Position numbers and translations under genes: made by a program. The notes beneath the pieces were generated by a model that saw only the letters and a list, made by a program, of their open reading frames with translations, ran no database searches and was not told where the DNA came from. Below, piece by piece: positions 3,383 through 29,265 of a stretch of 29,457 nucleotides of DNA. This stretch comes from a virus: the IMG/VR virus record IMGVR_UViG_3300042691_042741, positions 1 through 29,457 of that record. One strand, given 5' to 3'. Positions within the stretch are counted from its first letter, which is position 1, and every line of letters begins with the position of its first letter.

Positions 3383-4195
3383 TTAAAGCAAAAATTCTTT
3401 GTAAGTATTTTTCTCTTTATGTCCGTTCACCACTTGGAAATTAGGTGTTTGTGGATAACCTGCCTTAGAAACTTGTTCGTGGATTCTTTTAAACATCTGA
3501 TAGTAATTCAAAGCTTTATTAGAATCATTAGCTAAAACTTTTTCTAGGCTAGCTGTGAAGAGGCCCATAGGTCTTTTATCTATAAAAGATTTTAGGTCAT
3601 AAGAAACTTGGAATTCAGTAGAAGAAGAATAAGCTATAATATTACAAGCTAAATCACTTTCTTCAATTAGATTTGTTGGTAATTCCAATTCCTTTTTTAG
3701 ACCTGCAACTTTAAGAATATCAGAGAAATCCAGTGATCTAACTTGTGCATCATCATTTTCGCCGTCCAAATCAATCGACTTAAAATTATCTCTTGCATGA
3801 CAGCAATCTGATACCCATACAATATTAACACCTTCTTTAAACTTCTTTAAAAATTCCTTGGTTTCATAATCCCAAACTATTCTATCATATAGGCATAAAG
3901 CAGTTCTTCTTTTTTCTTTACCTCCACCTTCATAGTCTTCGTAAGTACCATGACAAGAGATATTAAAAAAGAAAGTGTCACCAGCTTCCAATTCTTCTGA
4001 AAGTTTGTTTAAAAAATCGACATATACTTGGTAAGTAGCTTTCTCGGATAAGAAAACATTAGTTTCAAATCCTTTTTCTTTTGCTAAGCTTTCCATAAAA
4101 ATAATGTCGTTTTCACAACCTCTCAAATCATTACCTGAACCGTAATAATTTGGATCAAATTTGTTAATACCAAAATGCAATGATACTTTTTTCAT
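3383..4195 (-). CDS. Caspase-like cysteine protease (peptidase C14, metacaspase-type)
   Basis: Caspase-fold proteases cleave after specific residues using a His-Cys dyad. The 270-residue protein follows the fold in order: first strand VSLHFGIN (4-11), NDLRGCENDI helix region (22-31), FFFNISCHG with His82 and SCHG in place of the usual SGHG (75-83), and VNIVWVSDCCHAR with the DCCH signature and probable nucleophile Cys132 (123-135). The C-terminal part (MGLFTASLEKVL, then a helix and GYPQTPNF) matches the small-subunit half. No extra sensor or death domain is fused. It has its own TATATTTATA element 14 nt upstream and sits among late phage genes. Roles in virion maturation, host-cell killing or interference with host defence are all possible; none is shown. 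The family call is firm. Confidence 0.85.
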   Translation of the reverse strand: MKKVSLHFGINKFDPNYYGSGNDLRGCENDIIFMESLAKEKGFETNVFLSEKATYQVYVDFLNKLSEELEAGDTFFFNISCHGTYEDYEGGGKEKRRTALCLYDRIVWDYETKEFLKKFKEGVNIVWVSDCCHARDNFKSIDLDGENDDAQVRSLDFSDILKVAGLKKELELPTNLIEESDLACNIIAYSSSTEFQVSYDLKSFIDKRPMGLFTASLEKVLANDSNKALNYYQMFKRIHEQVSKAGYPQTPNFQVVNGHKEKNTYKEFLL

Positions 4196-4207
4196 ATTTT
4201 GTTTTTT

Positions 4208-4220
4208 TATATAAATATAT
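4208..4220 (-). promoter_or_regulatory. TATATTTATA-type upstream element of the caspase-like gene
   Basis: The minus strand reads ATATATTTATATA, with 14 nt from the TATTTATA core (4210-4217) to ATG 4195. The same core and spacing recur before the large tail-fibre, terminase, portal and protease genes. Confidence 0.5.
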
Positions 4221-4230
4221 TTTTTTGTAA

Positions 4231-5322
4231 TTAATAGAGTAAATTTTCGGCTAATTGAATAATTAAATCTGTAACTTGGTCTACTTTATTGGAATCTTTA
4301 TCACAGGCGTTATAAATCATATCGCGTTCATTTTTAGCGATATTTTTATAATTAACCGTTGCACTTTTAGGTTTTGCGATTTCGCCGTCCACCTCCCAAT
4401 ACTGATCCATAACAAAATCAGAAACCAATAAAAGCCCATCATTATTATAAACAAAACTTTCCACGAACTTATTTAATAAATTCTTATAAGTACCAGATTT
4501 AGAATAATAATTCTCAATGAAATAATCAAGATCATCTCTATCAGATTCAGCTATTTTAACATAACCAAAAATACCTTTCAGTAAATGTGTATCGTACCTA
4601 TCATCATCTTGGAGCAATATTGGAATTATTTTTCTGTTATAAACTAAAAAATCAGAATCTCCAACCATCATAACAAAAACGTCATTCTTGTTATTAAAAT
4701 CCAAATCAACTGATGCCTTCTCTCCCTTTTTAGGCTCTTCTTTCAATTGAGCTAAAATCTCATTTACCTTCTCTTTTGAAATAACCCCCTTTCTAACTAA
4801 ATCACTGTATAGACCCTTAGCTAAAAAGTCTTTTACAGTACTTAGATAATAATCCTTGGTTAATTTATACCCAGCAGGAGAAAAGCCACCAGAATCACTA
4901 TCAGGATTCCTCTTCAAATATTCTCTCAAAACAATCTTACCGAATCCCCAACCCTTATATTCATTTACAGTAGTAACCAACACTGATCCTAAAAAATCCA
5001 TAGCAACTGATACCCTCACATCATCTTCATCAAAGATACCAATATTGCCTTTATCAGACATTTTAACTTTAAAGTCAGCATTGTTGACTTTAATATTATT
5101 TATCAGCTTTGGATATGCCTTGTATCCAATATTAGGATTTTCTTTATAACTTAATTCTTCAGCGTAGGAAGAGTTATAAAGTTCTGGGGAATGTGACTTA
5201 CCGCTTTTATTAATATATTTATCACGATATTCCTCCCAAGTCATTAAAGCAGGTTCAACAGATTTGTTTTCAAATTCGTTAGTTGCTTCATTGATTGTTG
5301 CTTCACTGATAATAATTTTCAT
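4231..5322 (-). CDS. GNAT-like acetyltransferase domain protein with prohead-type leader
   Basis: A 363-residue protein. Residues ~88-150 resemble a GNAT core: a beta-rich stretch (IGIFDEDDVRVSVAM, then SVLVTTV) followed by EYKGWGFGKIVLREYL, which resembles the acetyl-CoA-binding (R/Q)xxGxG/A loop and helix. The SGGFSPAGYKL segment after it is often seen in phage proteins of this sort. The rest (from ~200) is unrecognised and acidic. The first residues, MKIIISEATINEATNE, are like those of the adjacent CCA enzyme and contain IxE sites (ISE-A, INE-A) that a T4-like prohead protease could cut. Its start lies 2 nt from the CCA gene stop, so the two are cotranscribed. The target of acetylation is unknown and catalysis is unproven. 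Confidence 0.5.
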   Translation of the reverse strand: MKIIISEATINEATNEFENKSVEPALMTWEEYRDKYINKSGKSHSPELYNSSYAEELSYKENPNIGYKAYPKLINNIKVNNADFKVKMSDKGNIGIFDEDDVRVSVAMDFLGSVLVTTVNEYKGWGFGKIVLREYLKRNPDSDSGGFSPAGYKLTKDYYLSTVKDFLAKGLYSDLVRKGVISKEKVNEILAQLKEEPKKGEKASVDLDFNNKNDVFVMMVGDSDFLVYNRKIIPILLQDDDRYDTHLLKGIFGYVKIAESDRDDLDYFIENYYSKSGTYKNLLNKFVESFVYNNDGLLLVSDFVMDQYWEVDGEIAKPKSATVNYKNIAKNERDMIYNACDKDSNKVDQVTDLIIQLAENLLY

Positions 5323-5324
5323 AA

Positions 5325-6488
5325 TTATTTAATTAATTTTAAAAAGTTTTCTGTTTCTAATTGGTTGATTTTCTCACCTAATTCTTTACCTTTGACGTTA
5401 TATTCTTTAGCAACATCATCTCCACTTAAAGATAGTTGAAATTTTATAAAAGCGTCGGAGAAGCTTTCATTAAATCCTAAAATTTCATTTAAGAAATATC
5501 TCAAATCATTATCAGAAATAATCACCTTAGAGATTTTTCTTTTTAAGATTGGGGCATTTTCAGCACTTAAATTCTTCAAGGAAATTAAAGTAGATATATT
5601 ATAGGCTTCTTTACTTGTGTATTTATAATTGTTTAATTTAGAGCTTACCAATTCAGGACTGTTGTTTAACAATAAGGTAGCTATTATTATTTCAGGGTTT
5701 TTATATTCAATAAAATCGTAATTGACTTTCAAATCAGGGAATATTTGAGGGAATAAATCCAAGTCTTTTATCATGTTTAAATAAAACACTGTGGATTTAG
5801 CTTTACTTAAGCCCTTTAAAAATTCATCTCTAATTCTTTCAAATGATACTCCTTTTAGAGAGTTGTTGGATTGGACGGCGGATTTAATATCTGGGTTCAA
5901 ATCAGAATTAGTTATTGCCGCAAATCTTATAGCTCTCAATATTCTAATTCTATCTTCATTGAATCTATCCTCTGCATTGCCCACAGTTCTTATCTGACCG
6001 CTTTTTATGTCATCAACGCCTCCAACTAAGTCAATTACTTTATCCTTCGTTATATCGTAATATAGAGCGTTTATAGTTAAATCACGTCTTTTAACGTCTG
6101 AATCAATATTCGCAAATTTAATAGATTCTGGTCTTCTACCATCTTTATATTCACCATCTTCTCTGAAGGTAGCTATTTCATATTCTTCACCGTTTATGAT
6201 AACAGAAATTACGCCAAAAGATTTGCCCTTTGGAATTATGGTATCATAACCTTCTTTTTCCAATATTTCAATTACTCTATCTGGGTTAGCATCAGTAGCT
6301 AAATCGTAATCTTTTGGTTCTTTACCGTAAAATAAGTCCCTGACAGCTCCACCCACAATGAATAAATCGTGCCCATTTCTATTAAATTGTTTTGCTAAAA
6401 CTTTAATGTCACTTGGAACATTCATTTTTAAGTTTTCAGATTCTTCGTTTAGTCTTCTAATTATAGACTCATTTATTAAAATTTTCAT
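5325..6488 (-). CDS. cca: CCA-adding tRNA nucleotidyltransferase
   Basis: Adds or repairs the 3' CCA end of tRNAs. Class II nucleotidyltransferase motifs are clear: FIVGGAVRD (43-51), catalytic DYD (60-62), the YEIATFRED beta region (103-111), KRRDLTINALYYD (133-145) and NEDRIRILRAIRFA (177-190), which forms the nucleotide-recognition site. Length 387 is normal. Unlike bacterial homologues, the protein begins with a ~20-residue leader, MKILINESIIRRLNEESENL, resembling that of its neighbour and containing IxE/LxE sites (INE-S, LNE-E). That suggests incorporation in the prohead or a shared leader of other function. A TATTTATTG-type element lies 21 nt upstream. A phage CCA enzyme usually accompanies phage tRNA genes, but I see none in this window. 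Confidence 0.9.
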   Translation of the reverse strand: MKILINESIIRRLNEESENLKMNVPSDIKVLAKQFNRNGHDLFIVGGAVRDLFYGKEPKDYDLATDANPDRVIEILEKEGYDTIIPKGKSFGVISVIINGEEYEIATFREDGEYKDGRRPESIKFANIDSDVKRRDLTINALYYDITKDKVIDLVGGVDDIKSGQIRTVGNAEDRFNEDRIRILRAIRFAAITNSDLNPDIKSAVQSNNSLKGVSFERIRDEFLKGLSKAKSTVFYLNMIKDLDLFPQIFPDLKVNYDFIEYKNPEIIIATLLLNNSPELVSSKLNNYKYTSKEAYNISTLISLKNLSAENAPILKRKISKVIISDNDLRYFLNEILGFNESFSDAFIKFQLSLSGDDVAKEYNVKGKELGEKINQLETENFLKLIK

Positions 6489-6508
6489 ATTTTAACCTTT
6501 ATTGTTTA

Positions 6509-6518
6509 CAATAAATAT
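6509..6518 (-). promoter_or_regulatory. TATTTATT-type upstream element of the CCA gene
   Basis: The minus strand reads ATATTTATTG, 21 nt from ATG 6488. It differs from the main element only at the end and lies almost back to back with the plus-strand copy at 6529-6540, giving a divergent promoter pair. Confidence 0.4.
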
Positions 6519-6528
6519 GTAATTTTGA

Positions 6529-6540
6529 TATATTTATAAT
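6529..6540 (+). promoter_or_regulatory. TATATTTATA-type upstream element of the plus-strand gene
   Basis: The plus strand reads TATATTTATAAT, 21 nt (from the TATTTATA core) before ATG 6560. This is the only copy on this strand and it precedes the only plus-strand gene, which supports a directional promoter rather than random AT richness. Confidence 0.55.
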
Positions 6541-6559
6541 AAAATATTATATATAAACT

Positions 6560-7363: not shown

Positions 7364-7364
7364 C

Positions 7365-7396
7365 AAAAAAGGGGACCAAATGGGTCCCCTTTTTTT
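7365..7396. terminator. Bidirectional intrinsic terminator
   Basis: GGGGACC (7371-7377), loop AAATG, GGTCCCC (7383-7389), flanked by an A-run and a T-run. It ends the plus-strand gene (stop 7361-7363) and, on the other strand, lies directly beyond the endonuclease stop at 7395-7397, so one hairpin serves both converging transcripts. Confidence 0.9.
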
Positions 7397-9269
7397 ATTC
7401 GTATGTTTTTTCAAATTTCCAATTGCCACAATCCCAAACCCTATCAAAACCCAAATAAATCATCATTTCTTTTTCCGTCATTGAGCTATCCAATTCAGGA
7501 TATTCTTTAAGGATTTTATGTTTTTGGTACCGCATTCTATTGAATAGCTTTGCACCGTATTTTTTATTATAATAATGGTACACTGGAGGTTGCTGTTCAA
7601 TTAGTTTGAAACCTAGTTTTGTATATAGGTTATTTTCTCCATCTGGTGTCCATCTTATATCTGCGAATGTTTTTATTTTGGACGGCGAAAAATCTCGCTC
7701 AAATTTTCTTAACATTTTTGATGCCAAACCCCGAATATGATAATTGTAGTTTGTGGCATATCTGTTCAAATCATATACACCTGCTTCACTTGTCCTTTTA
7801 AAAGTCATAACCCCCACCATTTCGCCGTCCAACACCGCACCATACCGTATAGGAGAAGTATCACCCCCCTGTATATGATATTTCTCTAAAAAATCAAAAC
7901 TCTCATTGTGAGAAATCTCAATTATTTCACACGACCTAGCGTGCCCCTTCTTACCTAAATTTAAACCACAAGCATTTAATATCTTATTCCTTAATAAATC
8001 TGGTTTCTCAAGATACTCATTCTCAAATATATGATACAATTTAATTCCATCTTCCTTGGCTTGATTTGTCTTATCTAAATGATAATATCTATCCTTACCA
8101 CCATTATTCAAACTGCCATTAACCAAACCCTCACAATGATAAAGCAAACCGTTAGCCTCAAAACCAATGTTGCCATAAACAACATCCACCTCCTTATTAT
8201 TAGATAATTTTTTCTTGGAAATCTTCTCACCCGTAACCTCCGTTATCACTTCTCCTACCCATTGCTCGAACTTAGAAAAAGTACTTGCACAACTAGGACA
8301 ACCAGACTTTAATGTCATATGTTCATTCTGCGACTTCTTGAAAACCCCATGTTTAGGACATATAATATCCATCTTCGTTTTACTATTTACATTCTCCGTA
8401 CATAAAGAATAATCATATTTATCCTTATGTATTTTTCGAGATTTTTCGATAAATTCATTTAAACAAAATCTACTAGCCTCTAATGAACATTCAGGACAAC
8501 CACTACCTCCAACATGATTATCAAATCTTTGATGAAACCATCCGTGTTTATTGCATTTTATTTTAATTTTACTGCCAATATTAGTATATTCTGTAAAATC
8601 ATATTCGTATTTATCAGAATGAACAGCTATAACTTTCAATAAAAGTTCCTCATCAGTAAAACGTTGGAGTTCAGCTCCTTCTATTTTAGCACATACAGGG
8701 CATTTTTGCCCCTGTAAATGAGCTGAAACTACCTGTGAAAATTCACCATGTGTAGGGCATATTATCGTTATTTTATCAGTGTTAATTTTAAAAGAAGCTT
8801 TACTATAATCATAACCCCTATCTTTATGAATAATTTTACATTTCTCTAAAAATGCGGTTAATTTTTCTTCAGGAGTACCACCATACTTACAAACAGGACA
8901 TTTATACCCCTTTTTATGAACAGCAGGGATAGTTTGAAATTCACCGTGTTTTCTACAAATAATAGTTACAGGTGTTTTGTCATTTATATATTCAACCTTA
9001 GAATAATCGAATTCATCACCGTGAATAGTTTTTGCCCTTTCTATAAATTCATTGGTTTTAGATAAATCAACAACAGGGATTTTCTTACACTCCCTGCATT
9101 TAGCACCCCTCAAATGAACGCTTGCTATAACCTCAAAATCACCATGTTTTGAACAAGTAATAATAACAGGTTTTTTGGTGTTAATAAAATTAACTTTTTC
9201 GTAGGAATATTCATCCCCATGAACCTTTCGCGCCATTTCAATAAATTCTTCTTGCGTAGTTTTTTTCAT
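7395..9269 (-). CDS. Free-standing homing endonuclease (EDxHD/PD-(D/E)XK type) with five zinc-ribbon repeats
   Basis: Residues ~1-330 hold five copies of a ~65-residue unit (FIExARKIHGDxYDYSKV, then IICxxHGxF and KCPxC), each with a Cys-x2-His plus Cys-x2-Cys set likely to bind zinc and DNA. A nuclease domain follows (~335-440): FEQW, EVDVVYG, GFEANGLLYH, HLDKTNQAKEDG and HIFENEYLEK match the I-Bth0305I-like EDxHD fold. The last ~180 residues (from SCEIIEISHNES) form a domain common in phage homing nucleases, of unknown function. An upstream TTG at 9287 would add six residues, but it lies inside a TACCTTTG promoter box, so ATG 9269 is preferred. The gene sits beyond the capsid-gene terminator, a typical landing place for selfish nucleases that spread into related phages. 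Confidence 0.85.
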   Translation of the reverse strand: MKKTTQEEFIEMARKVHGDEYSYEKVNFINTKKPVIITCSKHGDFEVIASVHLRGAKCRECKKIPVVDLSKTNEFIERAKTIHGDEFDYSKVEYINDKTPVTIICRKHGEFQTIPAVHKKGYKCPVCKYGGTPEEKLTAFLEKCKIIHKDRGYDYSKASFKINTDKITIICPTHGEFSQVVSAHLQGQKCPVCAKIEGAELQRFTDEELLLKVIAVHSDKYEYDFTEYTNIGSKIKIKCNKHGWFHQRFDNHVGGSGCPECSLEASRFCLNEFIEKSRKIHKDKYDYSLCTENVNSKTKMDIICPKHGVFKKSQNEHMTLKSGCPSCASTFSKFEQWVGEVITEVTGEKISKKKLSNNKEVDVVYGNIGFEANGLLYHCEGLVNGSLNNGGKDRYYHLDKTNQAKEDGIKLYHIFENEYLEKPDLLRNKILNACGLNLGKKGHARSCEIIEISHNESFDFLEKYHIQGGDTSPIRYGAVLDGEMVGVMTFKRTSEAGVYDLNRYATNYNYHIRGLASKMLRKFERDFSPSKIKTFADIRWTPDGENNLYTKLGFKLIEQQPPVYHYYNKKYGAKLFNRMRYQKHKILKEYPELDSSMTEKEMMIYLGFDRVWDCGNWKFEKTYE

Positions 9270-9284
9270 ATTCGTTATTTTACG

Positions 9285-9292
9285 CAAAGGTA
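9285..9292 (-). promoter_or_regulatory. Bacteroidetes-type -7 box (TACCTTTG) before the homing endonuclease
   Basis: The minus strand reads TTACCTTTGCG, with 15 nt to ATG 9269. The octamer is the same as before GMP reductase (2292-2299). This suggests host-polymerase-type expression of both genes, different from the TATATTTATA set. Confidence 0.55.
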
Positions 9293-9308
9293 AGAAAATT
9301 ATATTAAT

Positions 9309-9348
9309 AAAAAAAGGCCCATGAAAAAAATTCCATGGACCTTTTTTA
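9309..9348 (-). terminator. Intrinsic terminator of the capsid transcription unit
   Basis: Read on the minus strand, GGUCCAUG (9334-9341) pairs with CAUGGGCC (9316-9323) through one U-G wobble, followed by a U-run (A-run 9309-9315). On the plus strand the same position is a mismatch, so the hairpin is built for the minus strand. It insulates the endonuclease from the head operon. Confidence 0.85.
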
Positions 9349-9368
9349 TAATTCGTTGATAATCAATA

Positions 9369-11195: not shown

Positions 11196-11228
11196 TTTAT
11201 AAATGTTTTTTAATTTTTTTGTGTGTTT

Positions 11229-13148: not shown

Positions 13149-13187
13149 AAAAAAAAACGGCGATGGACTAACCATCACCGCTTTTTT
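13149..13187 (-). terminator. Intrinsic terminator overlapping a stop codon
   Basis: On the minus strand CGGUGAUGG (13172-13180) pairs with CCAUCGCCG (13158-13166), nine pairs with one U-G wobble, then a run of U. The stop codon of the 124-residue gene (13175-13177) lies inside the stem, so a ribosome reaching the end of the gene would cover the hairpin. Confidence 0.85.
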
Positions 13188-13549
13188 TTATTTATATTTT
13201 TAAAAACCTTGAATTTAGGGTAATTACTTATTATATTTTTTAGTATATCTGGATATTCTTTTAAACTATTTATTGTGTTATCTTTTATTAGTGAAAGTTC
13301 AACTGAAAGGTATGCGGTGGTGGACGGCGAATCTCTTATGTCAACATCAATAAAATATTCGTAATTGTCCTTAAAATTTTGCTTTAATTCAAAAACCTTT
13401 TTCCTTATAGCCTTTGTAAAATTGCAAATTTCCCTTTTGTAATCAACAGCGCTCAATTGTCCCTGTAATTCAACCCAACATTGTAATTCAACTTTCGTAA
13501 TACCGTTTTTCTTAATAATCTTGCTCTGAAAATTATCATCTATTGTCAT
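13175..13549 (-). CDS. Hypothetical protein between head genes
   Basis: A 124-residue protein with a mix of predicted strands and helices (VELQCWVELQGQ, YEYFIDVDIRD, AYLSVELSLI) and a lysine-rich C-terminus. I do not recognise it. It has its own TATATTTG box 20 nt upstream and its own terminator, so it forms a single-gene unit inserted between the gp67/68-position gene and the protease. That makes it a likely late addition or a differently timed gene, not part of the core head machinery. One copy of the 9-mer TGGACGGCG lies inside it (13321-13329), encoding the DSPSTT segment. Confidence 0.6.
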   Translation of the reverse strand: MTIDDNFQSKIIKKNGITKVELQCWVELQGQLSAVDYKREICNFTKAIRKKVFELKQNFKDNYEYFIDVDIRDSPSTTAYLSVELSLIKDNTINSLKEYPDILKNIISNYPKFKVFKNINKKKR

Positions 13550-18331: not shown

Positions 18332-18348
18332 GTTGGACGGCGAAAATG
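18332..18348 (+). repeat. Intergenic copy of the GTTGGACGGCGAAAATG repeat
   Basis: Identical over 17 nt to the two copies at 29222-29238 and 29249-29265. Like those, it is non-coding, lies upstream of a TATATTTATA element and points away from the gene. It is part of the dispersed TGGACGGCG family. Confidence 0.85.
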
Positions 18349-18349: not shown

Positions 18350-18727
18350 TTAAATTGTTGGATTATTTAACATATATTCGCTTTCATATAATTCGTCCAT
18401 ACCAAAAATGGTGTGCTTTTTTGTGTCAGGCTTTGGCCATACAATATAAGGGGCATAATTGGGATTCGGTTCATCTTCCCATAGAATGTCGACGGCGAAT
18501 TTATCTGATAAAACAGCTTCTTGGATGATTGTACCATCTTCACCAATAATTGCTGGTGTCAACTCCAAATGACCAAGTGGAATTACTGCGACCTTATTGT
18601 ACGATGGAATTGGTGAGGGGATTTCCACGCCGTTTTCATCAAATGTAGGCAGTGGGGGTGGCACAATTCCGCCGTCCACCCCTACCATCTCATCATAACT
18701 ATTAAATTCGTATTTTAAATACCTCAT
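18350..18727 (-). CDS. Hypothetical proline-rich protein of the fibre region
   Basis: A 125-residue protein, unrecognised. The N-terminal part has a Pro-rich linker (DGGIVPPPLPTFDENG and PSPIPSY) and the C-terminal part is acidic with many aromatics. It is tightly packed: its ATG is 1 nt past the stop of the upstream 78-residue gene. Small proteins directly after fibre genes are often fibre-assembly or virion decoration factors, but nothing here shows that. Two family members of the 9-mer lie in it (18670-18678 exact; 18489-18497 one mismatch). Confidence 0.6.
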   Translation of the reverse strand: MRYLKYEFNSYDEMVGVDGGIVPPPLPTFDENGVEIPSPIPSYNKVAVIPLGHLELTPAIIGEDGTIIQEAVLSDKFAVDILWEDEPNPNYAPYIVWPKPDTKKHTIFGMDELYESEYMLNNPTI

Positions 18728-18986: not shown

Positions 18987-21900
18987 TTAATATATTCTGT
19001 AATAGTTGTTTATGTTGTTTGAAATTGCATCTTTATTTGTTGAATTTACATCTGTAAACCAGATAATTATTTCTTGTGAGTAACCACCTAAGTTAAAACC
19101 ACCGATAGAATAATCGAATAAAGTCAAATTTAACCAAGGGCTAAGATTTATTGAACCTTGTAAAAAAGATAAATGAGTTATGTTATCACCAAAAGCTGTA
19201 AAATACTGATCTCTTGTACTTAGTGATTGTATGTTATTATTTTTAAAAATATTGTTTATAGTAAAACTATTAGAAGTACTTGAAGTAGAACCACTTTGAA
19301 GGATAAAAACCCATCTAGCTGCACTTGAATTATCAGAATATAATATACCTTGAGTATCATTAGTTTTTAATACAGAGAATGATTGAAAAGGCTGACTAAG
19401 AGGCATGGTTACAGGTGTTGAAAACCCATCGTCAGTGCCATCTAATAGAATAGCAGGTCTATTATTATCAGGGTTTAGAATAATCTTTGAAATACTATCG
19501 TATATTTTAGGTTGTTTTGAAGCAGTTGATTGCACTTGATGTCTCCCATTCCCACTCTGATCATACCATGTTGTGACAAATCCATTTCCGCTTCCACAGA
19601 AAATTGATAATGTTGATGTATCCAAATCCCCATTACGATTTGCAAAAATATCGGTTTCGGCATTATCGGAAGATCTTCTGACACGAACCAAAGGTCCCGT
19701 GTATGCCGTATTCAACGACCTAACGGAATAGGCTGCTGCGGCACCTGAAAAATTATTTAATAAAAATTGTCGTGATCCATCGGCATACAAGTTATAATAT
19801 GAATTTGTATTTGTTCTGATCAAATTCATATTCGATTCCAAATTGCCATTCCAATACACCACTTCTGCAACTGTGTATGACCATTCTGGTGAATTGGTTG
19901 TTGGTGTAGGTGAAAATAAAACATTAGTACTCCAACCATCTCTATTGATATTAATAGAATTAGGTAATAGGTTGTTTCTTCTATAGCTTATAAGTTGTGA
20001 TACATTGTCATCTATAACACCACCAAAAGTATGTACTTGAGTGATATTGTGTAATTGTAATGATGGAGAAGATGAAGAAAAGGCGACATACTGATTCGTA
20101 GCAGCAGGAGCATAATGTCTAAAATTATCAGTGTAATATTGTGCTCTAACACTTCCATTATTAGTCCAAGTAGACTCATATAAAAAAACAGAACCAGAAC
20201 CAATATATTTACTAACCGTTGATTTCGAAAAAACATTTGCAGAAAATGTATAAGGGGTTGCCAAATTCAAAGCGATCGTTGTTCCTGTTCCGAACAAAAT
20301 AACAGGCTTTCCCAATTCCTTTTGTGTCACACCGCTAACAACGATAAGGGGTTGATTTGCGGCGGTTGTTTGCCTTAAATGTATCCCATTTATTGATTGG
20401 TTATACCATGTTACAACGTGACCGTTTGATGCCCCGACAAATGTTGTTAGGGCTGCTTCATCCAATACATCGTTTACAAACCCTATATCTTGTTCTGTGC
20501 TATCCGATGATCTTCTTACCCTTATACAAGGCCCTGTATAGGAATATCTCAATTTTCTAAATGAAAATGCCAAAGCAGCATTTTGAAAGCTATCTATAAA
20601 CAACGCTGGTGATGTTTCGCTTAACAAATCCGAATCTGGTAATGGTACGGGTGCCAACCACATTCCACGGATATATTTTGGTGTATCCCTGACCGTTGTT
20701 CCCATAAATTCCAAGGTGGTTCCTGTAAATGTTGTTCCGCTAACAACCTTTGCGCCATTAACAAAAACATCCGCCGTCGAACCGTTCCATTTTATTGCCG
20801 CTTTAACCCTATCGGTGGTGGTATTAAATAATGGGGTTGCAACACCGCCCACATATTTATCAATTTCCAAACGGGATGATCCGCTTGGGGTATTGAATGC
20901 AAAGGAATTTGTGGTCCCTGTTGTGGTGTCCCCCAAAAATAATCCCACATCGGAATTATCCCTGACATAAGGCAAATTATTATCCAAATCAACAAACCAT
21001 GTTCCACCAGCAGATGTAACCGTTTCATTGGTAAATAAAAAATCGCTTAAAAAACTATCTGCAAGCCTTGTTGCTGAAGCGTTTGTTGTTGGTATATAAG
21101 AGGTCGCATACGAACCCACCTCCAATTGGGCATTACTAACTGTTCCATTAACCGTCAATGTTAATGTGCCACCCGTGGGCGTAAATGTTAATTGGCTGCG
21201 GTTGTTTATTCCTGTGCCTATTAAAACATCTGAAAAGGCACCCGATAATGTGGTGGAACCTGTCCCATAAAAAGAAAATGTATGTGGAACATTTGTTACC
21301 GTTATGTTCTGTGTGGGTAATGTACCCCCGCTTAATGCCAAATTTGTTCTTTGGGGTTCCAATAATAAAACGGGTTTATTTGTTGTTCCCAAGGAATAAT
21401 CTATTGATGGTACATTTAATCTATCTGTGGTTCTTATGTAGGGTTGGACGGCGGAACCTTCAACTAATTGTGCTCCCCAAATATAATAAAATGAACCAAC
21501 ACCTATGCCAGATCCACCAGTGCCACCAGCATAAACATTAAAAGAACTTGCTTGTGTTGTATTCATTGTTACGGTAAGATAAATTCGAACCCAACCGTCT
21601 TTATATAATATCGAACCATGTCTGTCAACTGTACCATTAATAACAGATGTGGTATCTGTTAGAAAATTATATGTTATATTACCTATATTACCAGCACCAA
21701 AAAAACCAAACTGAAAACCACTACTAGAATCAAAATTACCTTTTTTTATAAAAAAAGACAAAGTATATTTGCCAGCATTACCTCTTAATGCACTTCTTAC
21801 AATAATAAATGGACTACCTACACATTCAACTTTATCTGCATATTGTGTTCCGTAAGGATCTTGTATGTTTTCAGTTGTAATTACAACACCTGAACCTTTA

Positions 21901-22094
21901 CTCCAATTATTAATATCTTCACTGTTTATTAATAAATTATACGGCACACTCTCCACCAAACCCTCATTATTTATTCTTGTTTTTGTTGATGCTCTTGTGA
22001 ATGTTGTATCTGTATTTATTGAAGGGGTGGACGGCGAAATGCCATAAATTTTTCCCTCCCCGTATGATGATGGTGATATTACTTTTATTGCCAT
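18987..22094 (-). CDS. Modular tail-fibre/adhesin protein, 1035 residues
   Basis: Probable receptor-binding structure. Order by eye: N-terminal segment with GKIYGISPSTPS (15-25); a carbohydrate-binding-like jelly-roll (~53-220, from NLLINSED to WGAQLVEGSAVQPYI); a second, shorter one ending YIPTTNASATR (~245-340); a concanavalin-like region (~345-500); then two tandem modules (~505-775 and ~783-1035). Each module has the signature YSVRxLxxAYTGPxxRVRRSSD, then FVG..NGFVTTWYDQSGNGRH, then a LamG-like fold ending NNYYxIY. The modules resemble arabinofuranosidase-type (ArabFuran-catal) sequence but probably act as lectins. The gene starts 3 nt after the stop of the 1088-residue fibre. Base composition shifts along it (20220-21450 is clearly richer in GC), which suggests mosaic assembly. 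Confidence 0.75.
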   Translation of the reverse strand: MAIKVISPSSYGEGKIYGISPSTPSINTDTTFTRASTKTRINNEGLVESVPYNLLINSEDINNWSKGSGVVITTENIQDPYGTQYADKVECVGSPFIIVRSALRGNAGKYTLSFFIKKGNFDSSSGFQFGFFGAGNIGNITYNFLTDTTSVINGTVDRHGSILYKDGWVRIYLTVTMNTTQASSFNVYAGGTGGSGIGVGSFYYIWGAQLVEGSAVQPYIRTTDRLNVPSIDYSLGTTNKPVLLLEPQRTNLALSGGTLPTQNITVTNVPHTFSFYGTGSTTLSGAFSDVLIGTGINNRSQLTFTPTGGTLTLTVNGTVSNAQLEVGSYATSYIPTTNASATRLADSFLSDFLFTNETVTSAGGTWFVDLDNNLPYVRDNSDVGLFLGDTTTGTTNSFAFNTPSGSSRLEIDKYVGGVATPLFNTTTDRVKAAIKWNGSTADVFVNGAKVVSGTTFTGTTLEFMGTTVRDTPKYIRGMWLAPVPLPDSDLLSETSPALFIDSFQNAALAFSFRKLRYSYTGPCIRVRRSSDSTEQDIGFVNDVLDEAALTTFVGASNGHVVTWYNQSINGIHLRQTTAANQPLIVVSGVTQKELGKPVILFGTGTTIALNLATPYTFSANVFSKSTVSKYIGSGSVFLYESTWTNNGSVRAQYYTDNFRHYAPAATNQYVAFSSSSPSLQLHNITQVHTFGGVIDDNVSQLISYRRNNLLPNSININRDGWSTNVLFSPTPTTNSPEWSYTVAEVVYWNGNLESNMNLIRTNTNSYYNLYADGSRQFLLNNFSGAAAAYSVRSLNTAYTGPLVRVRRSSDNAETDIFANRNGDLDTSTLSIFCGSGNGFVTTWYDQSGNGRHQVQSTASKQPKIYDSISKIILNPDNNRPAILLDGTDDGFSTPVTMPLSQPFQSFSVLKTNDTQGILYSDNSSAARWVFILQSGSTSSTSNSFTINNIFKNNNIQSLSTRDQYFTAFGDNITHLSFLQGSINLSPWLNLTLFDYSIGGFNLGGYSQEIIIWFTDVNSTNKDAISNNINNYYRIY

Positions 22095-22097
22095 AAA

Positions 22098-25000
22098 TTA
22101 AAATTTATTTAAAAATCTTGAAAGGGGTATGTTATTGTCCAAACCTGTCACGGGTGATAAGATTTCAAGAACTGTTGTGGAATTTAATGGAATGCCATAT
22201 ATCTCGCCATTTGTTCCCAAAACACCACCATACCATTTAACTGATCCAGTTAAATCCCCAAAAGTAGTTGTTGCATTTATTCTTGGATCTATTTCTAAAA
22301 CAGTGGTAGAATTAGAAGGTATTCCATAGATTTTTCCATTTGGTGCTAAAACACCCCCAACCCATTTACCCGTCCCAGTTAAGTTTCCAAAAGTTGCTAT
22401 AGTTTGTGTTATAGGGTTTATTTCTAAAACAGTAGTCGAATTATTTGGTATTCCATAGATTTTTCCATTTGGTGCTAGAACACCACCATACCAATTAGTA
22501 CTTCCAGTTACACTACCAAAAGTAATCGTTGTTTTTGTAACAGGGTCTATTTCTAAGATAGAAGTTGCATTAAAAGGTATACAATAAATTTTACCATTTG
22601 CACCCAAAACACCACCATAATATTTACCTGTTCCTATTATATCACCAAAAGTTGTTGTTGTTTTTGTATTAGGGTCTATTTCTAAAACAGTAGTTGAATT
22701 ATTTGGTATTCCATAAATTTTTCCATTTGGGGCTAAAACACCGCCACCCCATTTATTCGTCCCAGTTAAGTTTCCAAAAGTAGTTGTTGTTCTTTTAATT
22801 GGATCAATTTCTAAAACACTAGTAGAATTAAAAGGTATCCCATAAATTTTCCCATTTGGAGCTAAAACACCTCCAACCCAACCAGCGGGAGTTGTTAGAT
22901 TTCCAAAAGTTGTTGTTGTTTTTGTCAGAGGATTTATTTCTAATATTGTAGTTGAATTATAAGGTATTCCATAAATTTTACCATTCGGTGCTAAAACGCC
23001 TCCAATCCACTTAAGGGTACCACTTAAATTCCCAAAAGTATTCACGTCCAAACTCTGATCATAATTGAAATTGGTAGATATATTGCTCATAAACTGCGAC
23101 ATATCATCGGTGGTATAAGGTTGCTTGTTATACACCGAAACGTTTGCTGTTGGACGGTAAATGTTATAATATTTGTTGATTTCCGATTCCAAAAGTTTTC
23201 TTTTTGAGGTTTGGTTTGATTGATAAATTATCCATTCCTGTAATGTTCCACTATAGGCGTATGACGCAAACCAAAAACCAAAACCAATATCTACCCAAGC
23301 TGATGTATTGGCATTTACATCAGCACGTAATATTTGACCTTTATTGTTTGATAATGCGTTATAGGCTTGAAGCCTAGTTGTTACAGGTGTTAATGTGCCG
23401 TTGACATATAATGAAGGGGTACCATAAACTCCTGTTGCTGGACTTACACTCGATGCAACATAATAAGAATATCTACTTGAATTATTGGAATATAAATCAT
23501 ACATACTCATAGCGTCTACATCATTCCTATAATTCATCACAAAAAAGGTAGTTTGGGTGGAGCTACCACTTATACTAGTTGAAAATATTTCATCATCCAC
23601 CCCATCAAACTTCACAGCAACCCTACCATTCTCAAATATTGTATTACCCGAAGAAACTATTTGGGGCTGACTTGAAGCGGTTGGTTGGACGGCGTTATTG
23701 TTGCTCCCACTCTGATCATACCATGTTGTAACAAAACCATCCTTTGAAACCGAATAAATATTGTAAAAATTGTTTATCCCAAATTCAATATTGGCTCTGT
23801 TTGAAGACTCATTAGATGAAAAAATAACTATTTCTTGGATATTACCATTTAAGAATGTTGAAGTACCAACATTACCAGCCGCACCTATTATTAAACCGCT
23901 TGTATTAATACCATTTCCAGAATCACCCGTTATTAATGCACCGTTAGATAATTTAATTTCACTGTTAGTAGAATTAAATAAACCATAAAGAAACTCTTGT
24001 TTATTTAAAGTAGCTGTACTATCATCAAGTAAATTAATGCCAGAAAAAACTCTATATAAATTAATATTACTTGTGCCAATAAAGCCTAACACCTTAATTG
24101 GATTAGTATTATAAGGCTGTGATACTATATACGGATTATTTGTAGCTAAACTTAAAATATTAAATACAGTAAATACACTTACCATATTAAGTGTATTAGC
24201 ATTTATTAAATTATCATTCACCCCGTCAAATTTAATTGTCGGTTTTCCATTATCCAATATCAACGCCCCCTTATCAACTATTTTTGGTTGATTTGCTGCG
24301 GTTGATTGGACGGCGTTATTGCCCCCCCTTTGATCATACCATGTTGTTACATAACCTTCACCACCTATTCCTGTTGTAGTTCTATTATATGGTAAAACAG
24401 ATAAGCCAGAGTAAAGCTGTCTTCCCCATACACTTACACCTTTTGTTACATCTCCAGCAAAAGTATTGTTACCACCTTCAATAGAATATATTAATATTCT
24501 TAAAGTCGATGTAGTAGCAGAACCACTAATAGAAACTCTATACCACCCATCAACAGACGTTTCGACAGACCCAATCCCAGTTAAACTTAAAATATTACCA
24601 TTTGGGTCTATAGTTATTCTTCCACCTGCAAAACCAGAACTAGAAAATACACTTATGTTTCTACCTCCAACAGATTTCACATAAACAGAATAAGTAAAAT
24701 TTTGGCCTATCACTGCACTAGTATAATCATGAAAAAGAATGTGAATATCATTAGTTACAGTTTCAAAAATTGTATCACCTGTTGTTGTACCGTCAGGTGC
24801 AAGTAGATTATTTTCAGTTCTTGTAGTACCCACAAGAATAACGTCACTTAATGATTCAGAATTAGTTACTAAATTCTCCGAACCCACAAAAGAGGTTAAT
24901 GTTCCATCGGTAATTTCCGTTGGGGTAAAATTTTGTTCCGTGTTATCGGATGATCGTCTTACCCTAACAACGGGTCCGCTATATGTTGATGAAACGTATC

Positions 25001-25364
25001 GCAATGAATATGCCGCAACAGCGCCGCTTCCATAATCAGCTGGAAGGGTGCTTTCGCCATTTACAAAATTGGTTAAGGCGGTTGTATTCAAATTTCCATT
25101 TGCATCGAACCCTATATCTTGTTCTGTATTATCGAAGGCACGTCTCACACGAATTGCTGAACCCGTATAAGCGGACCTTAATTTCCTAACAGAGTATGCA
25201 GCAGCAGCATTTGGGACATAATCTAAAAGAAGGGGCTGGTTTATTGACCGTGTGACCTCCGAAAAATCATTCAAATTTTCGAGGGATTCCACAGTTCCGC
25301 CGTCCAACCCCACCCTTGAATTGTGGGCTATTACATCTCCATTGTATTTTACTGATTGAAGCAT
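22098..25364 (-). CDS. Modular tail-fibre protein with nested lectin modules and seven propeller-like repeats, 1088 residues
   Basis: Probable adhesin. It shares the YSVRKLRSAYTG / VTTWYDQ / LamG-like modules with the next fibre gene, but here they are nested. The head half of an outer module (51-103) is followed by a complete inner module (~104-539), then the outer tail half (GFVTTWYDQSG, 543-553) and its LamG-like part to INKYYNIY (~736). The inner module itself is split by a carbohydrate-binding-like domain (163-334, NLVTNSESLSD to GLSVLPYNRTTTG). Residues ~774-1070 are seven 43-residue repeats (GGVLAPNGKIYGIP, STTVLEIDP, TTTFG), probably a beta-propeller. The C-terminus is short. It lies about 21 nt after the 1270-residue fibre gene, forming a fibre operon. 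Confidence 0.75.
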   Translation of the reverse strand: MLQSVKYNGDVIAHNSRVGLDGGTVESLENLNDFSEVTRSINQPLLLDYVPNAAAAYSVRKLRSAYTGSAIRVRRAFDNTEQDIGFDANGNLNTTALTNFVNGESTLPADYGSGAVAAYSLRYVSSTYSGPVVRVRRSSDNTEQNFTPTEITDGTLTSFVGSENLVTNSESLSDVILVGTTRTENNLLAPDGTTTGDTIFETVTNDIHILFHDYTSAVIGQNFTYSVYVKSVGGRNISVFSSSGFAGGRITIDPNGNILSLTGIGSVETSVDGWYRVSISGSATTSTLRILIYSIEGGNNTFAGDVTKGVSVWGRQLYSGLSVLPYNRTTTGIGGEGYVTTWYDQRGGNNAVQSTAANQPKIVDKGALILDNGKPTIKFDGVNDNLINANTLNMVSVFTVFNILSLATNNPYIVSQPYNTNPIKVLGFIGTSNINLYRVFSGINLLDDSTATLNKQEFLYGLFNSTNSEIKLSNGALITGDSGNGINTSGLIIGAAGNVGTSTFLNGNIQEIVIFSSNESSNRANIEFGINNFYNIYSVSKDGFVTTWYDQSGSNNNAVQPTASSQPQIVSSGNTIFENGRVAVKFDGVDDEIFSTSISGSSTQTTFFVMNYRNDVDAMSMYDLYSNNSSRYSYYVASSVSPATGVYGTPSLYVNGTLTPVTTRLQAYNALSNNKGQILRADVNANTSAWVDIGFGFWFASYAYSGTLQEWIIYQSNQTSKRKLLESEINKYYNIYRPTANVSVYNKQPYTTDDMSQFMSNISTNFNYDQSLDVNTFGNLSGTLKWIGGVLAPNGKIYGIPYNSTTILEINPLTKTTTTFGNLTTPAGWVGGVLAPNGKIYGIPFNSTSVLEIDPIKRTTTTFGNLTGTNKWGGGVLAPNGKIYGIPNNSTTVLEIDPNTKTTTTFGDIIGTGKYYGGVLGANGKIYCIPFNATSILEIDPVTKTTITFGSVTGSTNWYGGVLAPNGKIYGIPNNSTTVLEINPITQTIATFGNLTGTGKWVGGVLAPNGKIYGIPSNSTTVLEIDPRINATTTFGDLTGSVKWYGGVLGTNGEIYGIPLNSTTVLEILSPVTGLDNNIPLSRFLNKF
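22157..23046 (-). repeat. Seven tandem 129-bp repeats (43-residue units) in the fibre gene
   Basis: Seven consecutive units, each with GGVLxxNGKIYGIP, NSTTVLEI(D/N)P and TTTFG(N/D)LTG, identical in length except for minor changes in the last. The DNA repeats are close enough that copy number could change by recombination. Seven blades of ~43 residues is a common beta-propeller size. Confidence 0.85.
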
Positions 25365-25385
25365 AGATTAATTATAAGTTTTTTT

Positions 25386-28300
25386 TTAATAGTTTAAAGC
25401 ATAAGACCCATAATAATTGGTTGAATCATATACAAATGTAAAAATGTCCGTTTTTCCAACAGCAGTTGTTAAGGTTGGAATAATACCACCAGACCATAAA
25501 ACATTTGCAGGCCATGATACCAAATTAAAACCGCTTCCTCCTTGTGTTATTTTAACAATATACGTTCCAACAGCAGCATTTGAAAATGTTAATGTTGTTG
25601 AAGATGAAAGAACAATATCCGCTATATTACCGTTTCTAAATACAACAGATGTGGTACTAGATGAAGCAGTAATAGCCTGTCTCGCACCATTCAATATTTC
25701 CCATTCAGTTCCATTATAAACCTGCTTTGAACCAATACTTGTATTGAATAACTCCAACCCTGTTGCTGGTGAAACAATCGCATCACGCTGTGCAGTGGTC
25801 ATTCTGGGGGATAAGAAACCTTGGGTGGTAGAAGATAATTCTAATATTGATGATGCGTTAGGAGCTGTTGTACCTACACCTATATTACCAGAAAAAGTGA
25901 TTGTTAGTCTTGGAATGTTGTTTGTTGTAAGAGCTAAGTCACCTACACTATTTCCAGCTAAACCACTAGTTAAACCTTGAGCTGTTAACCTATAACCACC
26001 CAATTTAGGTATATTTAAACTGTTAACACCGCTAGTAGTGTTAACATAAACACTATTTCCGATAAAACCGCTTGAATCAAAACCTCCACCAAAATTACCA
26101 TTAGCTACAACAAATAATCTATTATTATCAGTATAAAAGCCGTTAGCATTTGTACCTATTCTTAGAGCAGGAGTAGAAATAACTCCAACAGATGAACCAG
26201 TACCTATTTGAAGTAAACTTTGAGGTGTATTAGTTCCAATCCCCACATTTCCGTCGTCTCTGATCATCAAAGAGTTGCTGTTTCCAAGGGCATTATGGAA
26301 TTGTGCCGTCCATGTTGTCGTTCCACTTGGTTGAGAACCAACCACCACCAATCTAGCTGTTGACCCTGTTGTACCAACACTCAAGTTACCAGCTAAATAG
26401 TTATTTGCTGTACCTGCTCCATAAAGACCCCAGCCGCTACTATTACTCCATTCAATTGATCTCCAGTCAAAAGCAGATGTTAACGTGGGATTTACATGAA
26501 GACCACGTGTTGTTCCACTTGCACCCCCTGTTTGATTAATTGAATTACTTACTAAAATCTGATTAAAAGCCGCTGCGCCACTTGTAGGTGCAAATGCTTG
26601 ATCGAATGTTGCATTAGTTTGAGTACCTGATGTTGCATTTAATACGTTTGCTCCTCTAAAAACAAAACCAGCCTGATTTTGAGAACTAACTGAATGTGAG
26701 AACCTTAAAGAAGCTCCTGCCAAATCGGGAATATTACTTCCGTCGTTGTTTACCCAAAAACCTCTATTTAATTGAGTGCCAAAATTTACAACTCCATTGT
26801 CAAACACTCTGAAAAGTGCATTACCGTCACTGTTTTGTACCGAAAGTGATACACTCGATGATGTAGTTCCTGTACCCCTAACAACCAATCTAGCTGTTGA
26901 TCCTGTTGTACCAACACTCAAGTTACCAGCTAAATAGTTGTTTGCTGTACCTGAACCGTACAAACCCCAACCAGTATTATTACTCCATTCAATTGATCTC
27001 CAGTCAAAAGCAGATGTTAAAACAGGATCAACAAACAAACCTCTTGTTGTTCCACTTGCACCGCCTGTTTGGTTGATTGTAGTTGTAACCCAAAGTCCAG
27101 AGTATGTTGCTGCACCTGATGTCGGTATAAAAGTTGAACGTCCTCTAAAAGTGTATGTATCGCCAGATGATGGACTTATAGATCCAGTAATTGTAAATTC
27201 GCCGATATTCGTTGCTGATCCAATCAGTGAGTCTAACAACAAACCCCTACCTGTAATCCCCACAGATGAACCGTTACCTGTAGACATTAATCTTACAGAT
27301 TCACTTCCAAATTGCAATCGTCCACTATTATCTACTAATAATAATTGGCTTCCACCGCTATTTTGCACAAGTAATGCTGCTGCTGCTGACGTTGTGCCAC
27401 TTCCCCTAACAACCAATCTCGCTGTTGTTCCTGTGGTACCAATCCCCACATTTCCGTCGTTTCTGATCATCAAGGAATTGCTATTTCCAAGGGAGTTATG
27501 GAATTGCGCTGTCCAATTCGAATCGCTTGTATCAGTACCATGCACTTGTAATCTTGCGGTTGGTGTACCTACATTTATACCTGTGTTACCGTTTTGTAAT
27601 ATTTTAAATTGTTCTGTTAAGACACCACTCGGATACGTCCAAAATTGAAAGCCAGTATTAGTGTAAAAAATAGTATTTGTTGTATTAAATTGAGTACCAT
27701 AAGCTAAATTATTACTGTTATCAATTCGCATCAGATTCACAGTTGACCCACCAGTACTAATTCCTTGTAATGCTTCCGCATTTACACCTAATAAAATTGA
27801 TCCTTGTACTTGTAACGCTCGTTGTGGTGTTGACGTACCCACACCCAACCTTGTATTTACATTATCCCAATACAAATTGGAATTTCCCTGTAATTCGTTT
27901 GTGGATCCGCTTTTCCAAAATGCCACTTGTGTTGCAGTACCACTTCCGCTAACCAAATTAGCAGCAGCAGCAGTTTTGTTTTCCCAAACCTTAAGTACAG
28001 AATTGTAGAATAACATTTCTTGATTTGTTATTCCAGATGAAATTAAAACATTATGTAATTCATCTAACTCATATCCGTTTTGGATGGAAACAAATATTGC
28101 TCCTTCAGTTGCATGTTGTCTTATACAGAAACCTACTTGAACACCGTGGCTGGGTTGTGTAGGTCTTGTTGTGGTCATACCACCTAATTCTGTATCTGAT
28201 AACCAAACAATTTTTCCTTCTTCTAATGTGCTGGTATCAATATCTCTAACGTAACCAAAAGTGGTGCAAAGAGCTTTATTTCCGCCACTAGCATCTTCTG

Positions 28301-29198
28301 TCATTAAACCAAAAACACCTGCTGATTCAGATTCACCTGAAGCTATAGCATATCTAACTAATTTATTTGTACCATCTGAACTAACATAATAAACTACTTT
28401 ACCATTTTGTAACCCTGCATTATCAACATGTTTTACTGGAACAGGTAATTCTTGACCAATTTGTTGTAACACATTCCCTCCCCCCATCATAAATTCATAC
28501 GTTCTGTCAGTATCATTCCATCTCAACATACCTTCTTGCATAGGTGTTGATGAACCAGCAGTACTTATTTGTAAATAAGGGGTTGTAACACCACTAGAAG
28601 CCAAAGAAAAAGACCCTAAATTAACATTTTGTGTGGCACCAGTATAAGGTACATATCCGCTAACTGTTACACCAGAAAGTGATAATGTTCCACCGCTAAG
28701 TAAGAAATTAGACCCTAAAGCAACATTTGATATATCTCCATTAGCATCTCTACCTAAAATAGATACAGGTGTACCAGTAGACCCTGTTAAACGCATTGTA
28801 CCAGCTACTTCAAGGGTTTGGTTGGGTGTAGCTGTACCTATTCCCAAACGGCTGTTTAAATCATTCCAATAAAGAATAGAAGCACCACCAAATGAACCCC
28901 CGTTATTATATTGGATATACCCGTCAATACCTGCGGGTGTTCCACCGCCGCCACCACCGCTAACAGTGGTCCAGCTTAGGTTATTATTACCATCCGTTGT
29001 GAGGACTTGTCCAGTTGTACCGCTTGTAGTAGGAAGCGTATAAATAATATTATAAGTTAAGTTACCAGCTACGAATCCAGTATAAGGAGTATTAGAATCG
29101 GTGCAACAGCTACCAGATGATGCTAAATAAATTGATTCGAGTAAAGTAGGGCAACAAGGGATTTTTATACCCTCATTGAAATATACCACATTGGCCAT
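25386..29198 (-). CDS. Large tail-fibre protein, 1270 residues
   Basis: Probable trimeric fibre. The N-terminus (MANVVYFNEGIKIPCCPTLL, with a second Cys pair at SGSCCTDSN) is followed by a linker and a poly-Gly stretch (~79-84). The body has many GIGTxTPxxxLxVxGT and NVGIGTT motifs, the triple-beta shaft repeat common in Bacteroidetes phage fibres. The C-terminal region contains the LSSTTQGFLSPRMTTAQRDAI segment and KQVYNGTEWEIL (~1140-1185), then a ~90-residue beta domain ending NYYGSYALNY. No S74 autocleaving chaperone motif was found. A TATTTATA element lies 14 nt upstream. It is the first gene of the fibre block and, on the closed circle, follows tnpB. Confidence 0.8.
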   Translation of the reverse strand: MANVVYFNEGIKIPCCPTLLESIYLASSGSCCTDSNTPYTGFVAGNLTYNIIYTLPTTSGTTGQVLTTDGNNNLSWTTVSGGGGGGTPAGIDGYIQYNNGGSFGGASILYWNDLNSRLGIGTATPNQTLEVAGTMRLTGSTGTPVSILGRDANGDISNVALGSNFLLSGGTLSLSGVTVSGYVPYTGATQNVNLGSFSLASSGVTTPYLQISTAGSSTPMQEGMLRWNDTDRTYEFMMGGGNVLQQIGQELPVPVKHVDNAGLQNGKVVYYVSSDGTNKLVRYAIASGESESAGVFGLMTEDASGGNKALCTTFGYVRDIDTSTLEEGKIVWLSDTELGGMTTTRPTQPSHGVQVGFCIRQHATEGAIFVSIQNGYELDELHNVLISSGITNQEMLFYNSVLKVWENKTAAAANLVSGSGTATQVAFWKSGSTNELQGNSNLYWDNVNTRLGVGTSTPQRALQVQGSILLGVNAEALQGISTGGSTVNLMRIDNSNNLAYGTQFNTTNTIFYTNTGFQFWTYPSGVLTEQFKILQNGNTGINVGTPTARLQVHGTDTSDSNWTAQFHNSLGNSNSLMIRNDGNVGIGTTGTTARLVVRGSGTTSAAAALLVQNSGGSQLLLVDNSGRLQFGSESVRLMSTGNGSSVGITGRGLLLDSLIGSATNIGEFTITGSISPSSGDTYTFRGRSTFIPTSGAATYSGLWVTTTINQTGGASGTTRGLFVDPVLTSAFDWRSIEWSNNTGWGLYGSGTANNYLAGNLSVGTTGSTARLVVRGTGTTSSSVSLSVQNSDGNALFRVFDNGVVNFGTQLNRGFWVNNDGSNIPDLAGASLRFSHSVSSQNQAGFVFRGANVLNATSGTQTNATFDQAFAPTSGAAAFNQILVSNSINQTGGASGTTRGLHVNPTLTSAFDWRSIEWSNSSGWGLYGAGTANNYLAGNLSVGTTGSTARLVVVGSQPSGTTTWTAQFHNALGNSNSLMIRDDGNVGIGTNTPQSLLQIGTGSSVGVISTPALRIGTNANGFYTDNNRLFVVANGNFGGGFDSSGFIGNSVYVNTTSGVNSLNIPKLGGYRLTAQGLTSGLAGNSVGDLALTTNNIPRLTITFSGNIGVGTTAPNASSILELSSTTQGFLSPRMTTAQRDAIVSPATGLELFNTSIGSKQVYNGTEWEILNGARQAITASSSTTSVVFRNGNIADIVLSSSTTLTFSNAAVGTYIVKITQGGSGFNLVSWPANVLWSGGIIPTLTTAVGKTDIFTFVYDSTNYYGSYALNY
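26347..27080. repeat. Pair of ~195-bp near-identical direct repeats inside the fibre gene
   Basis: The segment 26347-26543 and the segment 26884-27080 (offset 537) share long identical runs, for example TACCAACACTCAAGTTACC and CCAGTCAAAAGCAGATGTTA, both encoding NYLAGNLSVGTTGSTARLVV-type shaft and DWRSIEWSN. A shorter pair (26241-26310 and 27444-27513) encodes NSLMIR..GNVGIGT. These point to internal duplication of shaft units and allow recombination that changes fibre length. Confidence 0.75.
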
Positions 29199-29210
29199 AT
29201 TTAGTTTTTT

Positions 29211-29222
29211 ATTATAAATATG
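29211..29222 (-). promoter_or_regulatory. TATTTATA-type upstream element of the 1270-residue fibre gene
   Basis: The minus strand reads CATATTTATAAT, with 14 nt from core (29213-29220) to ATG 29198. The GC-rich 17-mer ends directly next to it, so the repeat would lie at about the -15 to -35 region of any promoter here. Confidence 0.5.
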
Positions 29223-29265
29223 TTGGACGGCGAAAATGGTGGATTTTTGTTGGACGGCGAAAATG
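29222..29265 (+). repeat. Two tandem copies of GTTGGACGGCGAAAATG between tnpB and the fibre gene
   Basis: Copies at 29222-29238 and 29249-29265 are identical and 27 nt apart; the preceding TTT/TG context is also shared. They fill most of the 105-bp gap between the tnpB stop and the fibre start. Confidence 0.9.

Follow-up and report, generated by a model that had tools for sequence, protein, structure and literature searches.

The window, by which we mean the whole stretch of 29,457 nt analysed here, encodes a large terminase, a portal, a prohead protease and a major head protein, and by its predicted gene content it is a fragment of a T4-like phage. Window positions 1-20109 overlap the IMG/VR contig 3300032116_000031 (G001; 136,214 bp) at practically 100%. 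The best cultured relative by TerL is Flavobacterium phage immuto (25%), which, together with a BT4734-like protein that the phage encodes (in G001), suggests a host among the Bacteroidota. All contigs used here are fragments of uncultured viruses. About 70 ORFs of G001 were checked for domains, and its recombination and replication genes encode a RecA-like protein, a 5'-3' exonuclease, a UvrD/Dda-like helicase, an SNF2 helicase, PolB and a DnaB-like helicase. The ORFs checked included no nuclease-helicase of the AddAB/RecBCD type, just the UvrD/Dda-type helicase; no methyltransferase was found among the genes scanned, and no RNA families or tRNAs were found in the window.

On its minus strand the window also carries an IMP dehydrogenase/GMP reductase-type enzyme (1186-2292; Pfam IMPDH, E=4e-37), a caspase-domain gene (3383-4195; Pfam Peptidase_C14, E=1e-19) with apparent catalytic His (SCHGTY) and Cys (SDCCHA) motifs, which is kept in the relative L002 (4400-5209), and a 630-aa protein (7395-9287) with repeated treble-clef/DUF723-type domains that matches homing/HNH endonuclease PHROGs and, weakly near its C-terminus, acetyltransferases. 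Elsewhere in the phage, a large-chain ribonucleotide reductase is split across ORFs (G001 74639-76851; L013:14639-16851). A HINT/intein domain and an ORF with a weak match to HNH endonuclease accompany it, and together they probably make up an intein that carries a homing endonuclease. At its end the window continues into the sequence with which it begins, the contig L004 going on from 29457 into 1-235. This ~380-bp stretch (window 29279-29457 plus 1-235) has a duplicate, 95-97% identical, at G001 115960-116340; as a dispersed repeat it interrupts assemblies or closes them wrongly.

A short word, TGGACGGCG, recurs throughout the window. A sequence-only reading had reported 15 exact copies, 10 on the plus and 5 on the minus strand, and our recount gave the same figures. 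The copies are:

3760..3768, minus strand, read in sense as LDGE in the caspase-domain (Peptidase_C14) gene 3383-4195
4383..4391, minus strand, sense, VDGE, gene 4231-5322
5872..5880, plus strand, antisense, AVQ, tRNA nucleotidyltransferase/poly(A) polymerase-head gene 5325-6488
7679..7687, plus strand, antisense, SPS, homing-endonuclease-like gene 7395-9287
7823..7831, minus strand, sense, LDGE, gene 7395-9287
13321..13329, plus strand, antisense, SPST, gene 13175-13549
18334..18342, plus strand, intergenic (18281/18350)
18670..18678, minus strand, sense, VDGG, gene 18350-18727
21445..21453, plus strand, antisense, AVQ, tail/virion gene 18987-22094
22028..22036, plus strand, antisense, SPST, tail/virion gene 18987-22094
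23686..23694, plus strand (core), antisense, in an NNAVQ repeat, gene 22098-25364
24307..24315, plus strand (core), antisense, in an NNAVQ repeat, gene 22098-25364
25298..25306, minus strand, sense, LDGG, gene 22098-25364
29224..29232, plus strand, intergenic, upstream of gene 25386-29198 and on the strand opposite to that gene
29251..29259, plus strand, intergenic, forming a direct pair with 29224

As had been described, copies lie in genes (12) and in non-coding gaps (3 of 15), in several frames and both senses. Those at 23686 and 24307 are not independent, since both lie inside repeats of one tail protein, and one core is probably a duplicate of the other. The site at 13321 is kept at orthologous positions in L008 (4557) and L019 (4780), and the intergenic copy at 18334 has an ortholog in L007 at 880.

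This abundance far exceeds chance expectation. An order-3 Markov model of both strands predicts 0.15 copies in the window, and codon shuffling that preserves proteins and codon usage gives 0.04 (maximum 2) against 12 in window genes, in line with the earlier hand estimate of well under one copy. Counting copies with 0-1 mismatches gave 22, against 1.0 in dinucleotide shuffles; seven of these carry one mismatch, not three as first claimed. The reversed pattern, our control, does not occur in the window. Duplicated modules of tail proteins do contain repeated copies (WTAQF in G001 and NNAVQ in the window), as they would if the abundance came from chance, codon usage or a protein-motif coincidence. 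Such an origin is nevertheless refuted, with next to no probability left to it, by the codon-shuffled expectation of 0.04-0.5 per genome against 12-58 found and by the reading of TGGACGGCG in several frames and both senses.

The copies pooled from ten contigs number 268, and 262 of them fit K-TGGACGGCG-N-W; many are common to close relatives, so that not all are independent. The usual form is G-K-TGGACGGCG-A-W-W-W. Among the 186 exact cores of four contigs (G001, G015, G018 and G019), position -1 is G or T (no C, five A), position +10 is A or T in 186/186 with no G or C, G predominates at position -2, and A/T at +9 to +12; no sequence is conserved outside about -5 to +12. The match is all-or-none: each single-mismatch variant occurs at most 11 times, and most 0-5 times, which is near background, the commonest (11) being a change at the last base. 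The word is asymmetric and non-palindromic. The conserved stretch of ~14 nt described earlier stood in part, since all 15 window copies fit KTGGACGGCGNW while the full GKTGGACGGCGRAA is present in just nine.

Counting in the fuller genome and in related phages, a check proposed along with the first reading, bore out the pattern. G001 carries 67 copies in 136 kb (39 plus, 28 minus), G015 has 49 in 66 kb, G018 has 42 in 44.7 kb, G019 has 28 in 39.7 kb and G016 has 34 in 71.8 kb, while L239 and L281 carry 12 each and L019 and L002 seven each. Copy density in the diverged relatives is 0.5-0.9 per kb, further strand counts from these relatives are 21/21 and 16/18, and the reversed control pattern is absent from G001, G015, G018, G019 and G016. 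These contigs share 67-78% DNA identity with G001; G015 is 96-98% identical to G018 or G019 where they overlap, so the copies in these three are not independent. The clade contigs come from pattern and protein searches of viral sequence, which gave at least the carriers named; more are likely. More distant relatives with 33-35% identical TerL have no copies (G010, 8 kb; G011, 17 kb; G012, 91 kb), and no other comparable word was found in the 91-kb fragment G012 or in immuto. Two candidate parallels, CTGCGTGAG in L136 and TGTGCCCGA in Microcystis phage Mel-JY01, were rejected as tandem coding repeats, each inside a single tail or collagen-like gene, and L017 (2 copies) and the GC-rich contigs from the pattern scans were discarded as chance matches.

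A further phage-like contig, L229 (8.3 kb), has 10 copies, of which nine are intergenic and eight form four inverted pairs that could fold as hairpins. Similarity to the compared clade contigs was not detected, and L229 may come from a variable region of a related phage or may be a distinct element served by the same reader. Its DUF932-like protein, assigned from the immuto annotation, had no IMG/VR relatives by the patterns used. Inverted pairs follow stop codons at G001 7890-7944 and at L229 63-104, 537-573, 4716-4748 and 5950-5995, where they would form terminator-like hairpins, as Neisseria uptake sequences do.

We then compared orthologous sites, as the sequence-only reading had proposed. 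In blocks of G001 and G015 aligned at 67.7% identity, 14 of 20 sites are exact; among aligned 9-mers as a whole 4.5% are, and among GC-rich ones 10.6%. The corresponding fractions are 9/12 in G018, 10/15 in G019 and, at 77.6% identity, 29/37 in G016, where 15.8% of aligned 9-mers are exact; overall, 67-78% of sites are conserved, compared with 4-16% for aligned 9-mers in general. At residues whose amino acid does not change, the codon within the motif is identical at 30/33 positions in G015, 19/21 in G018, 20/24 in G019 and 56/69 in G016, against 43-57% for comparable residues outside it (45% for G015). Because synonymous codons inside the motif are frozen, protein constraint does not explain the conservation. 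More than 90% of clade copies lie inside genes, 121 in sense and 112 in antisense and in several frames, so neither transcript orientation nor the encoded peptide is the target. Copies are spaced at random or slightly more evenly than that (CV 0.74-0.89 in four genomes and 1.08 in G018; random ~0.96), and neighbouring sites do not alternate significantly in orientation. These comparisons agree with the DNA-level signal first suggested, and they show a signal in double-stranded DNA that purifying selection maintains, as opposed to an effect of coding, RNA or a mobile repeat.

Two of the functions first listed for the word found no support. A single packaging or replication origin site does not accord with 67 copies per 136 kb. 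A miniature mobile repeat is contradicted by flanks that are not conserved beyond about 15 bp and by lost sites that, except in poorly aligned stretches, align without insertions and differ mostly by substitutions. Among diverged relatives lost or gained sites usually differ at two or more positions, and among close relatives most differences are single substitutions. At one site (G015 20784 and G019 23543) four changes are clustered within 6 bp (GTGGGGTGCAAAT versus GTGGACGGCGAAT) in a context that is 98% identical, much as in the origin by recombination that has been proposed for the uptake sequences of Neisseria (PMC2397512). In L002 (8024-8055), the reading frame shifts between an HD-domain ORF and the one after it, and the shift falls exactly within a motif copy, GGCGGAAAT; this is either an assembly error or a motif-associated indel.

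To look for the word in hosts, we scanned a collection of 84,980 bacterial and archaeal species, about half of GTDB species, for the 16-mer GGTTGGACGGCGAAAT. The 109 stretches found are about the chance number, and among the 80 of them listed with titles each genome had one match, except for one (Rubripirellula) with two. Neither 20 matched genomes nor 248 Bacteroidota genomes were enriched, the word being no commoner there than its reversed control. From how often the extended word occurs among the phage copies, we estimate that a host with even a few hundred sites should have given several matches. A host uptake or Chi signal, as first considered, has no counterpart in any genome searched (~85,000 species), and since no such genome shows the word, it does not qualify as a host Chi as these are known; either the word is the phages' own or their host comes from an unsampled lineage. 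As the earlier reading had it, no described motif in the literature searched matches.

We tentatively favor a DNA-processing signal of this phage clade, serving replication and recombination and Chi-like in behavior. A sequence-specific protein from the phage, or from an unsampled host, would read the word anywhere on replicating phage DNA. A helicase/nuclease or a recombination-replication complex would enter at DNA ends or forks and be switched at the nearest correctly oriented copy, which would spare phage DNA and start strand exchange and recombination-dependent replication. Since such complexes would run both ways from many ends, the phage would need copies every 1-2 kb and on both strands, without set positions. 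Among the known uses of scattered asymmetric words, a Chi-like signal is by analogy most likely the best fit for a recombination-dependent T4-like phage. The density, strand balance, all-or-none match, independence of transcription, random to slightly even spacing, conservation and recombination-replication genes favor it; the lack of an AddAB/RecBCD-type nuclease-helicase among the phage genes checked and of the word in any host genome searched counts against it, as does a length of 12-15 bp, since known Chi sites have 5-8 nt. The word is also far more enriched than E. coli Chi, whether in the bacterium or in its phages (O/E ~2.3, 0.2/kb; PMC3784561), which again speaks against a Chi-like role. 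In its favor is a published suggestion that phages which package concatemers, including virulent phages, commonly undergo Chi-dependent recombination (PMC3784561).

The main rival within the phage is site-specific priming, which we regard as unlikely. A 1367-aa protein (G001 104973-109076), a BT4734-like domain fused to a helicase, would initiate primers at motif copies, every 1-2 kb and on both strands. Copies do stand 1-2 kb apart on both strands, a spacing that resembles the length of Okazaki fragments, but known primase sites have just 2-5 nt, and the motif-free relative G012 is just a 91-kb fragment. The protein matches BT4734-like_N (E=6e-11) and, weakly, DEAD/ResIII, had no solved-structure match by sequence, and its gene is 58% identical in G015 and G018; the BT4734-like family is listed among archaeo-eukaryotic primases (PMC5862659). 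We consider it similarly improbable that phages have accumulated the Chi or DNA-uptake word of an unsampled host. The collection covers about half of GTDB species, the invariant 9-bp core with its A/T tail, on both strands and in genes, has an uptake-like architecture, and L229, with no detectable similarity to the clade, bears 10 copies in 8.3 kb with four inverted pairs, as in Neisseria uptake sequences (PMC2397512). An uptake-like density would, however, give dozens of matches; the extended word never exceeds two per genome among the 80 of 109 chance-level matches listed from ~85,000 species, and the 248 Bacteroidota genomes are not enriched.

Less probable than either is a recognition site at which a nickase or a modifying enzyme would mark virion DNA, like the localized single-strand interruptions of T5, phiKMV and tf-like phages, whose 9-mer is conserved across the family even without nucleotide similarity (PMC11780129, PMC3517423). 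In tf and its relatives the reported motifs occupy a single strand, whereas ours divide 39/28, 21/21 and 16/18, the clade density is higher, and no methyltransferase is among the genes scanned. We hold it equally doubtful that the word spreads by itself, through short-patch recombination or template switching, as molecular drive and not selection for function. The clustered changes between G015 and G019 would suit this, and Neisseria uptake sites that occur singly have likewise diverged too far for point mutation to explain (PMC2397512); yet most of the remaining differences between close relatives are single substitutions, and sites kept over ~32% DNA divergence with frozen codons need selection or continual repair. 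A transcriptional element (a stoperator-like repressor site, a terminator or part of a promoter) is very unlikely. Inverted pairs in L229 and at G001 7890/7918 can form hairpins, and three copies follow TATAAATA against 0.9 expected, too few for us to accept a link to these late-promoter boxes. Stoperators are oriented with transcription and occupy promoters and short gaps between genes (PMC9283540), while the word, as noted, is overwhelmingly intragenic and indifferent to gene direction.

Whether the machine is its own Chi system or a site-specific primase, there is a real prospect, if short of an even chance, that the clade has its own self-recognition word, read by a phage-encoded machine without host counterpart. 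Known genome-wide selected DNA words are bacterial traits (Chi, uptake sequences) or weak or strand-bound phage traits. A dense, strand-balanced, clade-wide word without a host carrier would, if true, mean that a virus evolved its own sequence-specific DNA handling, adding a new layer to phage replication and self/non-self discrimination. In practice, the word can also serve as a marker for finding fragments of these uncultured phages in metagenomes.

Altogether, the sequence comparisons mark K-TGGACGGCG-N-W as a genome-wide, asymmetric signal of one T4-like phage clade, which can be set beside several known systems. Like Chi (E. coli RecBCD, lambdoid phage), it is a short, asymmetric, G-rich word, genome-wide, mostly genic and all-or-none; unlike Chi, it spans 12-15 bp, is balanced between strands and is ~180-fold enriched, against ~2-fold, and no over-representation was seen in the genomes searched (~85,000 species by the 16-mer, among the 80 of 109 matches listed with titles; 248 Bacteroidota), an unsampled host being possible. 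With Neisseria DUS and Haemophilus USS it shares an exact core of 9-12 bp on both strands and in genes, an A/T tail, about one copy per kb, conservation far above background and flanks, and, in L229, inverted pairs at gene ends; it differs in its letters and in being carried by a lytic-type phage clade, and in the genomes searched no naturally competent bacterium has it at ~1/kb, though the host may be unsampled. The nick motifs of T5, phiKMV, tf and Rembedalsseter are likewise 9-mers conserved across a phage family and spread through coding sequence, and in tf and relatives they are confined to one strand (PMC3517423, PMC11780129), which the word is not. Stoperators of cluster A mycobacteriophages are asymmetric, phage-specific 13-mers in more than 20 copies; the word, in a T4-like phage, is mostly intragenic and lacks their orientation along transcription (121/112) and their place in promoters and short gaps (>90% intragenic). 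Cyanobacterial HIP1, GCGATCGC, is similarly highly iterated genome-wide, as a palindromic, host-wide octamer, while the clade word is non-palindromic and has different letters, and no conserved element longer than the word, present or absent as an insertion, marks it as a mobile repeat. On the defining features tested, the word is not a member of the Chi, uptake-sequence, stoperator or nick-motif classes, but it may work like any one of them.
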